DNA from: Desulfarculus sp.
GTDB taxonomy: Bacteria > Desulfobacterota > Desulfarculia > Desulfarculales > Desulfarculaceae
DNA: 50,010 nucleotides
Assembly (NCBI GenBank): GCA_003605055.1
Contig: QZKP01000013.1
Span: forward strand, 1 to 50,010
Direction: 5' to 3'
The position numbers and the translations under genes are program-made. Below the pieces are notes generated by a model. That model was given only the letters and a program-made list of their open reading frames with translations. It was not told where the DNA came from and did no database searches. The first letter of the stretch is position 1; every line of letters begins with the position of its first letter. Of this stretch, positions 13,400 through 33,169 are shown one piece after another.

Positions 13400-13597
13400 G
13401 CCTCTCTCTCCCTGGGCCGGGGCCCATGTGCGGTTAACAGCGGCCGCCTTCATTCTAGCAGAAGCCCGGCCCTCGGGCCTCGGCTTGCCCCGGACCGTCC
13501 GGCCCGGCACGGACGGCTTGTTTAAGCACCGCGGCCTGGCTTAACCTGGGAGCAGACGGGTCCGCGCAGCGCCGGCCCTCTGGCAAGGAGCAGCCCT

Positions 13598-14002
13598 ATG
13601 AAGCGATTGGCCATCCTATCCCTGGCGGCCCTGCTGGCGGCCGCGGCCCCGCCCGCCTTGGCCGCGGCCCAGGACCAGGCGCCCCTGGTCAGCCCCCAAG
13701 AGCTCAAGCAGATGCTGGGCCGGGCCGGGGTGGTGGTGCTGGACGTGCGCCTGGGCCAGCACTACCGGGCCTCCAAGTACAAAATCGCCGGCGCCCTGCG
13801 CGAGGACCCCTTCCAGGCGGAGCAGTGGGCCGCCAAGTACGACCAGGGGCGCACCTACGTGCTTTACTGAGCCTGACCCGACGAGTACACCAGCGCCCGG
13901 GTGGCGCGGAAGCTGATGGAGAGGGGATTCAAGAAGGTCATGGTGCTGGAGGGCGGCTGGAACGCTTGGCAGGAGGGGAAATTCCCCATGGAGGCCAAGT
14001 AG
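13598..14002 (+). CDS. Secreted rhodanese-like selenoprotein with two in-frame UGA codons (predicted UxU)
   Basis: A conventional reading stops at 13870, but the frame continues through TGA at 13868-13870 and TGA at 13874-13876 to a TAG at 14000-14002, giving 134 residues. The part after the UGAs is a perfect rhodanese C-terminus: PDEYTSARVA, GFKKVMVLEGGWNAW. Relatives of this subtype have YCxCP-(D/N)-E at the active loop; here both Cys positions are UGA (codons 91 and 93), so the product would read Y-U-A-U-P-D-E. A signal peptide (about residues 1-23) predicts export. The ATG has AAGGAG nearby. A hairpin starts 11 nt after the second UGA. selD lies 17.6 kb away in the same window. Rhodaneses are sulfurtransferases. 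Sec insertion is inferred; sequencing error at two sites or a pseudogene are alternatives. Confidence 0.75.
13888..13903 (+). other. Candidate bacterial SECIS upper stem-loop
   Basis: CACC (13888-13891) pairs with GGTG (13900-13903) around an 8-nt loop. The stem begins 11 nt after the second in-frame UGA, the same spacing seen after the Sec codon of selD in this window and in E. coli fdhF. The stem is short and a lower stem is weak, so this is a candidate only. Confidence 0.4.
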
Positions 14003-14047: not shown

Positions 14048-14788
14048 ATGAGAATATCAGCCTTGTGCCTGTGCCTGGGGCTCTTGCTGGGCCTGGCCGG
14101 CCCGGCCGCGGCCCAGGCCGTGGACTACTCCCTGTACGCCGATCTGCTGAAAAAGTACGTGCAGGGCGAAGCGGTGGACTACGCCGGCCTCAAGGGAGAG
14201 CGGGCCAAGCTGGACAGGTTCCTGACCCAGATGGCCCAGGCGGAGCCGGAGCGGCTGGGCCGCGCCGAGCAGATGGCCTTTTACATCAACGCCTACAATG
14301 CCTGGACCCTGTGGCTGATCCTGACCAAGTACCCGGAGCTGAAGTCCATCAAGGACCTGGGCGGCCTGCTCTCCGGCCCCTGGTCCCAGAAGATCGTGCG
14401 CCTCAAGCACGGGGTGCTGACCCTGGATGAGGTGGAGCACGACATCCTGCGGCCCCGCTTTAAGGACCCCCGGGTACACTTCGCGGTCAACTGCGCCTCC
14501 AAGGGCTGCCCGCCGCTGTGGCCGGAGCCCTTCACCGGCGCCCGCCTGGACGAGCAACTGGACCAGGCCACGGCCGCGGTGATCAACGACCCCCGGCGCG
14601 CCAAGCTGGAGAATGGCGTCCTGTACCTGAACAAGGTCATGGACTGGTACGCCGGCGACTTCCCCCGCGATCAGGTGAGCTTCGTCAAGAAGTACGCCCG
14701 CGGCGAGCTGAAGAGGCGGCTGGAGGCCCTGGGCGACAAGGTGCGGGTGGATTACCTGGACTACGACTGGTCCCTGAACGACAAGTAG
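14048..14788 (+). CDS. DUF547 family exported protein
   Basis: This 246-residue protein has a signal peptide (cleavage near AAAQA, residue 23) and a DUF547 domain across most of the mature part. Family motifs seen are AFYINAYNAWTLW, the Cys-containing HFAVNCASKGCPPL and a terminal LDYDWSLN. DUF547 proteins are widespread and unassigned biochemically; the conserved Asn/His/Cys residues hint at a papain- or transglutaminase-like site. The start is ATG 14048. It follows the UGA-containing rhodanese by 45 nt on the same strand, so co-transcription is possible, and it ends at a strong terminator. Confidence 0.85.
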   Translation: MRISALCLCLGLLLGLAGPAAAQAVDYSLYADLLKKYVQGEAVDYAGLKGERAKLDRFLTQMAQAEPERLGRAEQMAFYINAYNAWTLWLILTKYPELKSIKDLGGLLSGPWSQKIVRLKHGVLTLDEVEHDILRPRFKDPRVHFAVNCASKGCPPLWPEPFTGARLDEQLDQATAAVINDPRRAKLENGVLYLNKVMDWYAGDFPRDQVSFVKKYARGELKRRLEALGDKVRVDYLDYDWSLNDK

Positions 14789-30640: not shown

Positions 30641-31684
30641 CTAGAAGCTGACCTGGACCTGGCCGGGGTGCTCGGCCACGCTTCGGCCGATGACCGCGCC
30701 GGCCACGCCGCGCTCGCGCAGCATGGCCAGGGCCGGCTCCACGTCCGCGGGCGCCAGGCCCATGAGCATGCCGCCCGAGGTCTGGGCGTCTGAGAGCAGG
30801 TCCAGCAGAATGGGCTCCGCCGTGCCGCTCAGGATGAGGCTCTTTTCGCAGTAAGCGCGGTTGGCGTGGCTGCCCACCGGCACCAGGCCCATGGCCGCCA
30901 TCTCCCGGGCCTGCTGGAGGATGGGCACCGCCCGGGCCTCGATGACCAGCCCCAGGCCCGAGGCCGCGGCCATCTCCTGGGCGTGGCCCAGCAGCCCGAA
31001 GCCGGTGATGTCCGTGGCCCCGGTCACCCCCAGGGCGGCCATCACCTCTGCGGCCGGGGCGTTGAGGGCGGTCATCATGGCCACGGACTCGGCCACCGCC
31101 TCGGCCGAGGCCAGACCGGCCTTGAGGGCCGTGGCGATCACGCCGGTGCCCAGGGGCTTGGTGAGCACCAGCACCTGGCCGGGCTGGAGCCCCGCGTTGG
31201 TCACCAGCCGCTCCGGATGCACCACGCCGGTCACCGACAGGCCGTACTTCAGCTCCGGGTCCTCCACCGAGTGGCCGCCGGCCAGCACCGCGCCGGCCTG
31301 GTGCACCTTGTCCAGGCCGCCGCGCAGGATGTCGCGGAACACCTCCCGGGGCATGTCCTTGACCGGGAAGCAGCAGATGTTCAGGGCGGTCAGCGGCCGG
31401 CCGCCCATGGCGTACACGTCGCTGAGGGCGTTGGCCGCGGCGATCTGGCCGAAGAGGTAGGGGTCGTTGACGATGGGCGTGAAGAAGTCCACGGTCAGGA
31501 TCAGGGCGATCTCCTCGGTCAGACGATAGACCCCGGCGTCGTCGGCGGTGTTCAGGCCCACCAACAGATCTGGGTGCTGCTCAACCGGCAGACCCTCCAG
31601 GATCCCGGCCAGGTCGCCCGGACCTATCTTGGCCGCTCAACCGGCGGCGCGGGCCTTCTCGGCCAGCTTCACCTTCTCGCTCAC
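30641..31684 (-). CDS. selD: Selenophosphate synthetase SelD, selenocysteine-containing
   Basis: SelD makes selenophosphate from selenide and ATP. The annotated-looking frame from 31564 misses the catalytic N-terminus. Reading through TGA at 31639-31637 gives 347 residues from GTG 31684 (GAGGAG six bases upstream) with the active site AAGUAAKIGPGDL, Sec at 16 and the partner Lys at 19, the same spacing as Cys17/Lys20 of E. coli. After it come the ATP-binding Asp motif TADDAGVYRL, the Gly-rich loop LGTGVI and GATDITGFGLLGH. A hairpin follows the UGA at the right distance. HAD and LysR genes lie upstream on the same strand, so it is part of a selenium cluster. The UGA reading is very well supported. 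Confidence 0.95.
31607..31634 (-). other. SECIS element of selD
   Basis: Eleven nt after the UGA, AGGTC (31625-31621) pairs with GACCT (31615-31611) around a CGGGC loop with Gs. GGCC arms (31634-31631 and 31610-31607) make a lower stem. This is the layout of a bacterial SECIS, with the same 11-nt spacing as E. coli fdhF. Confidence 0.7.
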
Positions 31685-32173: not shown

Positions 32174-33079
32174 CTAGCCCTCCTGCTCCACGGCGTCCAG
32201 GCCGGCCAGGCACAGGGCCATGAAGGCCTGGGCCGAGGGCGAGTGGGTGCGCTTCTTGCGGGTGACCAGATAGAAGCGCCGCCGCAGGTCCAGGCTTGAG
32301 ACCGCCACCTCTTTGAGCCGGCCGGCGGCCAGCTCCTCGGTGATGGCCCGCCGGCTCAGGAAGCCCAGGCCCACCTGGGCCCGCACCGCCTGCACCACGG
32401 CCATGGTGGAGCCCATCTCCGCGGAGATGTTCAGATCGCTCACCTCCACCCCGGCCTTCTTGAGGGCCCGGGTGAGGAACATGCGGGTGCCGCTGCCCGG
32501 CTCGCGGAAGACCAGGGGCGGCTTGCCCAGGTCCTTGGCCTTGAGGCTGTCGCCGTAGGGATGGCCTGGCCAGGCGGCCAGGCAGAGGTAGTCGTCCATC
32601 AGGGGGGTGAAGGAGAGCCGCTCCTCCTCCATGGTGGCCCCCACCAGGCCGGCCTCCAGCTCGCCGGAGAGCACCTGCTCCACCATCTGGCGGGTGTCGC
32701 CGATCTTGAGCGTCACCTTCACCTCCGGGTGCAGCAGGCGAAAGCGGCCGATGAAGGCCGGCAGCACGTACTGGCCCGGAATGGTGGAGCCGCCCACCAC
32801 CAACTCCCCGCGCAGCCGGCCCAGAAAGGCGTCCATGGCCCGCTGGGCCTCCAGCACCAGGGCCAGGATGCGCTGGGCGTACTCATAGAGCAGGTCCGCG
32901 GAGCGGGTGGGCAGTATCTCCCGGCCCAGGCGGTCGAACAGCCGCACCCCCAGCTCCTCTTCCAGGCTCTTGATGTGGCCGCTCACCGTGGGCTGGCTGA
33001 GGTACACCTCCTCGGCCGCCCGCGAAAAAGACCGGCATTCGAATACTTTGGCAAAAACTTCCAGGCGCCGCAGATCCAT
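32174..33079 (-). CDS. LysR-type regulator, selenium-metabolism-associated type
   Basis: This 301-residue regulator has an N-terminal winged helix-turn-helix (about 3-60, with FSRAAEEVYLSQPTVSGHIKSLEEELG) and a LysR substrate-binding domain (about 90-290, with GELVVGGSTIPGQYVLP and EPGSGTRMF). It resembles the group found beside selD and selenoprotein genes in Desulfobacterota. The ATG at 33079 is used; a TTG two codons upstream is possible. Its stop is 3 nt before the HAD gene. It probably controls the downstream selenium genes in response to a small selenium or thiol metabolite, which is inferred. Confidence 0.88.
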   Translation of the reverse strand: MDLRRLEVFAKVFECRSFSRAAEEVYLSQPTVSGHIKSLEEELGVRLFDRLGREILPTRSADLLYEYAQRILALVLEAQRAMDAFLGRLRGELVVGGSTIPGQYVLPAFIGRFRLLHPEVKVTLKIGDTRQMVEQVLSGELEAGLVGATMEEERLSFTPLMDDYLCLAAWPGHPYGDSLKAKDLGKPPLVFREPGSGTRMFLTRALKKAGVEVSDLNISAEMGSTMAVVQAVRAQVGLGFLSRRAITEELAAGRLKEVAVSSLDLRRRFYLVTRKKRTHSPSAQAFMALCLAGLDAVEQEG

Positions 33080-33169
33080 GCCCAACCCCCCGAAGCTATC
33101 GGGATTAACTTTTGGTATCTATTAGTTTTGCCAAGGATACCAGGGACAGGCCCTTCTGGTCAAGCCAGG

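Follow-up and report, generated by a model that had tools for sequence, protein, structure and literature searches.

Two in-frame UGA codons in the active-site loop of a rhodanese-family protein are likely read as selenocysteine

Does a rhodanese gene with two in-frame UGA codons in its active-site loop encode a protein with two selenocysteines (Sec, U)? The question is raised by a gene at 13598..14002 on the forward strand of the window, i.e. the whole 50,010-nucleotide stretch of contig QZKP01000013.1 (Desulfarculus sp., assembly GCA_003605055.1) analysed here. The gene starts with ATG, 7 nt downstream of a sequence that reads as Shine-Dalgarno-like (AAGGAG, 13585..13590, +), and stops with TAG at 14000-14002, which gives 134 residues if TGA is read through. 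The first in-frame TGA (13868..13870) is codon 91 and the second (13874..13876) codon 93, so written U91 and U93 in the motif LYUAUPDE (context TYVLYUAUPDEYTSARV, with TGA translated as U). A first-pass annotation, made from the letters of the sequence, had placed both codons in frame and the frame and true stop intact beyond them, and our reading from the ATG at 13598 bears this out. Since translation with table 11 ends after 90 residues, annotation can easily miss the product. Its N-terminus (13598..13666, +) resembles a signal peptide and contains a hydrophobic segment, which is seen in 17 of the 19 family members that carry both TGAs; this prediction fits the earlier proposal of export, and the protein is probably exported. 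Among 12 genes of the window, which is 67% GC, TAG is the stop codon in 10 and TGA in 2, a small sample.

The window protein matches Pfam Rhodanese (PF00581) with 52.2 bits and the NCBIfam equivalog NF041203 (rhodanese_LYCAU) with 152.3 bits against a curated cut-off of 115, covering positions 7-126 of the 126-position model. In a structure model computed with Cys for Sec (pLDDT 89.6), a strand (residues 86-90) leads into a six-residue loop (91-96) and a helix (97-108), and the PDB matches of this model are rhodanese domains, including GlpE (1gmx, E 4.6e-6, TMq 0.64). Because of this strand-loop-helix arrangement in the model, we place U91, loop position 1, at the site of the rhodanese catalytic Cys and U93, loop position 3, in the same loop. 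Thiosulfate rhodaneses have an active-site loop of the pattern CRxGx[R/T], with Arg residues; the loop UAUPDE does not follow it, and its sixth position is Glu in 19/19 UxU and 61/64 CxU rows of the family. Relative to E. coli GlpE, a single-domain rhodanese, the window protein thus has the same fold and, in the model, a six-residue loop after the strand, but it differs by UAUPDE in place of CRxGxR/T, by Sec instead of Cys and by its signal-peptide-like N-terminus.

How common are the two codons among homologues? We collected loci by searching the relatives of the window, the class it belongs to, a phylum sample and one other family, and by scanning 84,980 species genomes with a DNA pattern for YVLYUxUP; the member set was defined with a profile from four members, run over all loci collected to that point. 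Of the phylum-sample matches under the NF041203 cut-off, a minority was read. It comprises 96 distinct members including the window (64 CxU, 19 UxU, 7 CxS, 2 CxC, 1 SxS, 1 CxA and two without a motif, L035 and L218), and no pair of rows exceeds a similarity of about 90%, measured as a simple ratio. With the two motif-less members left out, the motif is readable in 94 rows including the window, a set in which UxU is over-represented, since the pattern scan favours it and every two-TGA match over the cut-off was read first: 64 are CxU, 19 UxU, none UxC and 11 other. Position 1 of the motif is Cys or Sec in 93/94 rows. The read-through product aligns across both UGAs with the 64 CxU and the 18 other UxU rows, as the first-pass annotation had asked of its homologues. 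That annotation had also expected the TGAs to replace a Cys-x-Cys pair; both do fall on Cys/Sec columns, but the usual pattern there is Cys-x-Sec, Cys-x-Cys being found in 2/94.

Two rows need a comment on how they were counted: L194 was entered as CxS and is excluded from the group of 10 non-Sec rows used below, and L166, which has an in-frame TAA, was entered as CxU and is excluded from the tree for the approximately unbiased (AU) test and from the structure alignment. Of the 93 rows listed, 73 are in A1. L194 itself (1543-1917, +) reads YCCSU, which puts the Sec one residue beyond its usual place. A few members look decayed: L220 (paired with L168) and L218 (paired with L165), both in G291, and L166 (paired with L085) in G243. 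L220 has a TGA replacing the conserved Trp, and L218 and L166 are cut by an in-frame TAA.

We regard the phylum sample as the fairest source for the frequency of UxU, because the pattern scan favours this form. In this sample, 83 matches exceed the NF041203 cut-off, in 60 of 395 genomes (counted from the match table), and 11 of the 83, from 10 genomes, contain two TGAs; all eleven are UxU. The pattern scan returned 43 stretches, seven of which encode the NF041203 family (Desulfarculaceae 1, Syntrophaceae 3, Syntrophales 1, Deltaproteobacteria 2). Since the pattern demands YVLYUxUP, other UxU genes would escape it.

The two codons are conserved. A homologue from the same genus (G002) has both TGAs at 51% identity to the window gene, and because the same two codons recur there and in 17 further UxU genes, we exclude chance as their origin. 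Codon 1 is TGA in 19/19 UxU rows and TGC (47) or TGT (17) in the 64 CxU rows, and all 83 CxU and UxU rows have TGA as codon 2. In the 10 non-Sec rows, codon 2 is TCA in six, one step from TGA, TGC in two, TCC in one and GCC in one. For the stretch downstream of the UGAs, 9/9 pairs with a finite Ks have a Ka lower than their Ks (a tenth pair has no finite Ks). Over 41 codons, the values range from 0.03/0.85 to 0.14/0.21 (L109/L132) and 0.27/0.53 (window/G002); for these last two pairs the contrast is modest, which we count against the double-Sec reading. The hairpin stem described next may hold down Ks in this stretch.

Is there an element that could direct Sec insertion? By comparison at a fixed position, we found a SECIS-like hairpin with the core GCGCC / CGGGT / GGCGC at 13893..13907 (+), i.e. 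with 5 bp in the stem and 5 nt in the loop. The stem begins 16 nt past the second UGA, and the loop lies at a distance of 27 nt from the first UGA and 21 nt from the second, downstream of both. A possible SECIS stem had been proposed to start 11 nt after the second UGA; a hairpin is indeed present in this region, but its conserved core starts at 16 nt. The excerpts of a 2026 review that we drew on give, as limits for bacterial SECIS elements, a loop of 3-9 nt, an upper stem of 4-16 bp, 16-37 nt from UGA to loop and a G within the first two apical loop positions (PMC13188914). The loop CGGGU with G at position 2, the 5-bp stem and the distances of 21 and 27 nt lie within these limits for both UGAs, and in these features the downstream RNA agrees with the bacterial SECIS model against which it was to be checked.

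The hairpin has a fixed place in the Sec genes. All five pairs are present in 19/19 UxU, 62/64 CxU and 1/10 non-Sec rows; one pair is broken in each of the two remaining CxU genes, and the other nine non-Sec rows retain just one to three pairs. When the 3' letters of the pairs were redealt 2000 times, the mean was 9.4 and the maximum 14 for the UxU rows (observed 19/19), and the mean was 39.9 and the maximum 46 for the CxU rows (observed 62/64). Compared with every other position and loop size tried, this place ranks first in both UxU and CxU and 27th in the non-Sec rows. The second stem pair, formed by third codon positions, covaries between U-A and C-G, with 10 and 9 UxU rows, respectively, and 40 U-A, 21 C-G, 2 U-G and one mismatch in CxU. 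The loop has G followed by G or U in 83/83 Sec rows vs 3/10 non-Sec rows, while the residue encoded at this position varies between R, S, G and W in the Sec rows. We saw neither a shifted nor a second hairpin in the UxU genes. The one non-Sec gene with a full hairpin, L214 (368-763, -), is CxS with TCA at codon 2 and, judging from its sequence, seems to have lost its Sec recently.

The case for a SECIS element rests on this comparison, because folding of the window's own sequence resembles that of shuffled sequences and Rfam gives no match on the window at gathering thresholds. In single-sequence folding, the hairpin region was no better than shuffles in the window (z 0.63 and -0.23) or in G002 (z 0.16), and we discarded this method as SECIS evidence. 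A free search for the best hairpin returned differing places for many of the rows and no hairpin for others, and the fixed-position test was used instead.

Could the host decode UGA as Sec? The genome contains selA (606 bits) and selB (383 bits). The window itself encodes SelD at 30641..31683 on the reverse strand (GTG start; TIGR00476, 344 bits on 30641-31564), which is of the Sec type as previously annotated, with GUAAK and its TGA at 31639-31637 (-), and also a selenium metabolism-associated LysR-family regulator at 32174..33085 (-; NF040786, 289 bits, cut-off 250). The absence of selA, selB and selC had been named as evidence against Sec; the first two are present, but selC was not found in the draft assembly of the window (G000, 94% complete, 78 contigs). 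It was found there neither by the Rfam model (150 of 845 candidates scored) nor by a covariance model from eight relatives (150 of 861 scored), nor by an exact pattern, nor by BLAST with the gene of a congener; a looser pattern gave one match, at which ARAGORN calls no tRNA.

We consider the absence of selC to be probably an assembly gap, because the gene that neighbours selC in congeners is missing from G000 as well. A full selC is called in five of eight genomes of the genus (G001, G003, G004, G005 and G006), and in G003 and G005 a tRNA nucleotidyltransferase gene adjoins it. This nucleotidyltransferase gene was not found in G000 and G007; in G002 it is cut at a contig end, and in G007 a 43-nt piece of selC opens a contig. 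Neither selA nor selB lies within the 19, 19 and 3 kb around selC of G005, G003 and G036, respectively.

The selC pattern matched two to four times in each of four congeners, one full gene plus one to three more (L229, L234, L237 and L239 in G003; L228 and L233 in G005; L230 and L235 in G006; L231, L236 and L238 in G001). We rejected a multi-copy selC, as BLAST in G003 resolved a single full gene of 98 nt, the other three matches being 3' pieces of 66-69 nt. The RNA model gives one full and one weak match in G005, and, where it was run, ARAGORN calls tRNA-Sec in only some of the copies. The pieces look as if they were remnants of integrated elements that use selC as attachment site.

Judging from these comparisons, we consider it very likely that both UGAs are decoded as Sec in this NF041203-family rhodanese. 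Decoding would follow the ordinary SelA/SelB/SelD/tRNA-Sec route, and the single downstream hairpin, in the same place as in the CxU relatives, would direct both insertions. It is hardly credible that the gene is a pseudogene, or that sequencing errors put two nonsense changes into a CxC or CxU gene. The window does come from a single draft assembly, and some paralogues in the family contain a stray TAA, or a TGA where Trp is expected (L165/L218, L166, L220/L168), but the same two TGAs occur in G002 and 17 other genes, the hairpin covaries, Ka is below Ks after the UGAs and the frame runs intact to the TAG at 14000-14002. An improbable alternative is that only the second UGA encodes Sec, and that the first mostly terminates translation, or that a different tRNA inserts Cys or some other residue there, so that the protein would effectively be CxU. 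A possible reader exists in selC*, a tRNA-Cys with UCA anticodon known from published work, and E. coli requires a strict spacing between UGA and SECIS. Such a reading would also agree with the hairpin of the UxU genes, which stands unshifted where it stands in CxU genes, and with the greater number of CxU rows (64 vs 19). Against it, the 27 nt from the first UGA fall inside the quoted 16-37 nt range, and two species retain the TGA at codon 1 although their proteins are 51% identical, and it has more than one origin. Moreover, a search for a tRNA pattern with the anticodon loop TTCAAA gave one match, as did the control, and no tRNA by ARAGORN, in an assembly from which selC is likewise missing.

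What would two selenocysteines do in a rhodanese loop? In the predicted model, Sec91 would occupy the catalytic Cys site, with Sec93 two residues on in the same loop. We speculate that Sec91 attacks a sulfane-sulfur, selenium or other oxidised substrate, that Sec93 resolves the intermediate under formation of a diselenide (a selenenylsulfide in the CxU enzymes), and that a periplasmic donor reduces the diselenide. We see the chances of such a diselenide redox role of Sec91 and Sec93 as evenly balanced. Both residues could instead be Sec but serve as ligands of a metal or metalloid, or in a true selenium or sulfur transferase acting through a Se-S intermediate, a transfer role like the one that the first-pass annotation had considered; this function, which shares the decoding with the diselenide proposal, seems to us possible without being the one we favour. 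The rhodanese fold with the place of the nucleophile kept speaks for it, as do the ligand roles of Sec that excerpts of the review mention for some other selenoproteins (PMC13188914). Cys or Sec at position 1 in nearly all rows and a loop without the Arg of thiosulfate rhodaneses speak against it, but do not decide the matter. On the whole, we lean slightly towards the view that UxU rhodaneses have evolved repeatedly as diselenide enzymes, and that in them one unshifted SECIS would serve two Sec insertions, at 27 and 21 nt. If this is true, SelB here either copes with differing spacings or engages one hairpin a second time within two codons, and rhodaneses could repeatedly exchange their catalytic Cys for Sec to give a diselenide centre.

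Is this form known? The family and its CxU selenoprotein are known already, and the double-Sec form is the new part; no UxU rhodanese was found in the literature searched, a scope that NCBI's own NF041203 entries lie outside. In the excerpts used, the 2026 review lists five rhodanese selenoprotein forms, of which NF041203 is form 3 (CxU, one Sec) and none is UxU, and states that two or three Sec occur in a small subset of 119 selenoprotein families or subfamilies (PMC13188914). The window protein resembles the NF041203 'rhodanese-related (seleno)protein' in its loop, the Sec at the second position, the place of the hairpin and its score over the cut-off, and differs in having Sec rather than Cys at the first position, a comparison made with the family name and the CxU of the excerpted review (PMC13188914). 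We call the gene a variant within NF041203 because the first motif position is TGA, as in 18 other rows, instead of a Cys codon. The TsoB rhodanese/DsbD fusion-like selenoprotein (NF045694) also combines a rhodanese-like domain with two Sec, spaced as UxxxxU according to the part of the review used (PMC13188914). In addition to this other Sec spacing, its model has 572 positions and a cut-off of 805 bits, of which the window protein reaches 26. UxxU selenoproteins have a thioredoxin-type fold, and a diselenide selenoprotein family with UxxU was reportedly described by Shchedrina et al. in 2007, with the diselenide named in the title. Such proteins (Prx-like) likewise place two Sec in one redox motif, as far as the excerpts of the two sources go (PMC13188914, PMC2398784), but with UxxU spacing and outside the rhodaneses.

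Did the double-Sec form arise once? A tree for which the motif columns were masked requires 10 changes for UxU, three of them forced by starred branches; 10 is not a firm count, because few columns were available for the tree (12 of its 91 inner branches are starred). A single UxU clade was rejected by the AU test (p 0.00014, 19 UxU held together, 82 rows), and UxU and CxU are mixed within starred clades (L151 with L099 and L169; L152-L153 with L179). From the sequences, the UxU form thus seems to have arisen more than once; UxU and CxU would be exchanged by a Cys/Sec change at loop position 1, in a direction that we infer. The mixture of both forms, with sister genes differing at this codon, is a natural experiment on the benefit of a second selenium atom, and also on how far one SECIS can serve two UGAs.

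The neighbourhood of the gene varies. A DUF547 gene (14048..14788, +) follows the rhodanese gene directly, with a gap of 45 nt; in G002, DUF547 is also downstream on the same strand, behind an NAD-binding/DUF2867 gene, and in L156, L157, L158 and L210 (UxU) and L088 (CxU) stop and start overlap. DUF547 lies downstream in 6/18 UxU vs 1/63 CxU loci with at least 600 nt of downstream sequence, in counts that cover the two nearest reading frames, the flanks being short in most loci. A single clade of the DUF547-linked genes was not rejected by the AU test (p 0.225). Seven DUF547 members (window, L156, L157, L158, L210, L088 and L147) have His131, His144, Cys149 and Cys154 invariant. A structure model of DUF547 (pLDDT 76, 7 sequences) has its best PDB match at E 1.2, and therefore taught us nothing on this protein. 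An isochorismatase-like neighbour is common to the window and G002. Elsewhere in the family, a family of 13 neighbouring genes, of which the one scanned is amino-acid-permease-like, accompanies 12 CxU loci and a truncated member, and multihaem cytochromes are both scanned neighbours of two small groups of loci.
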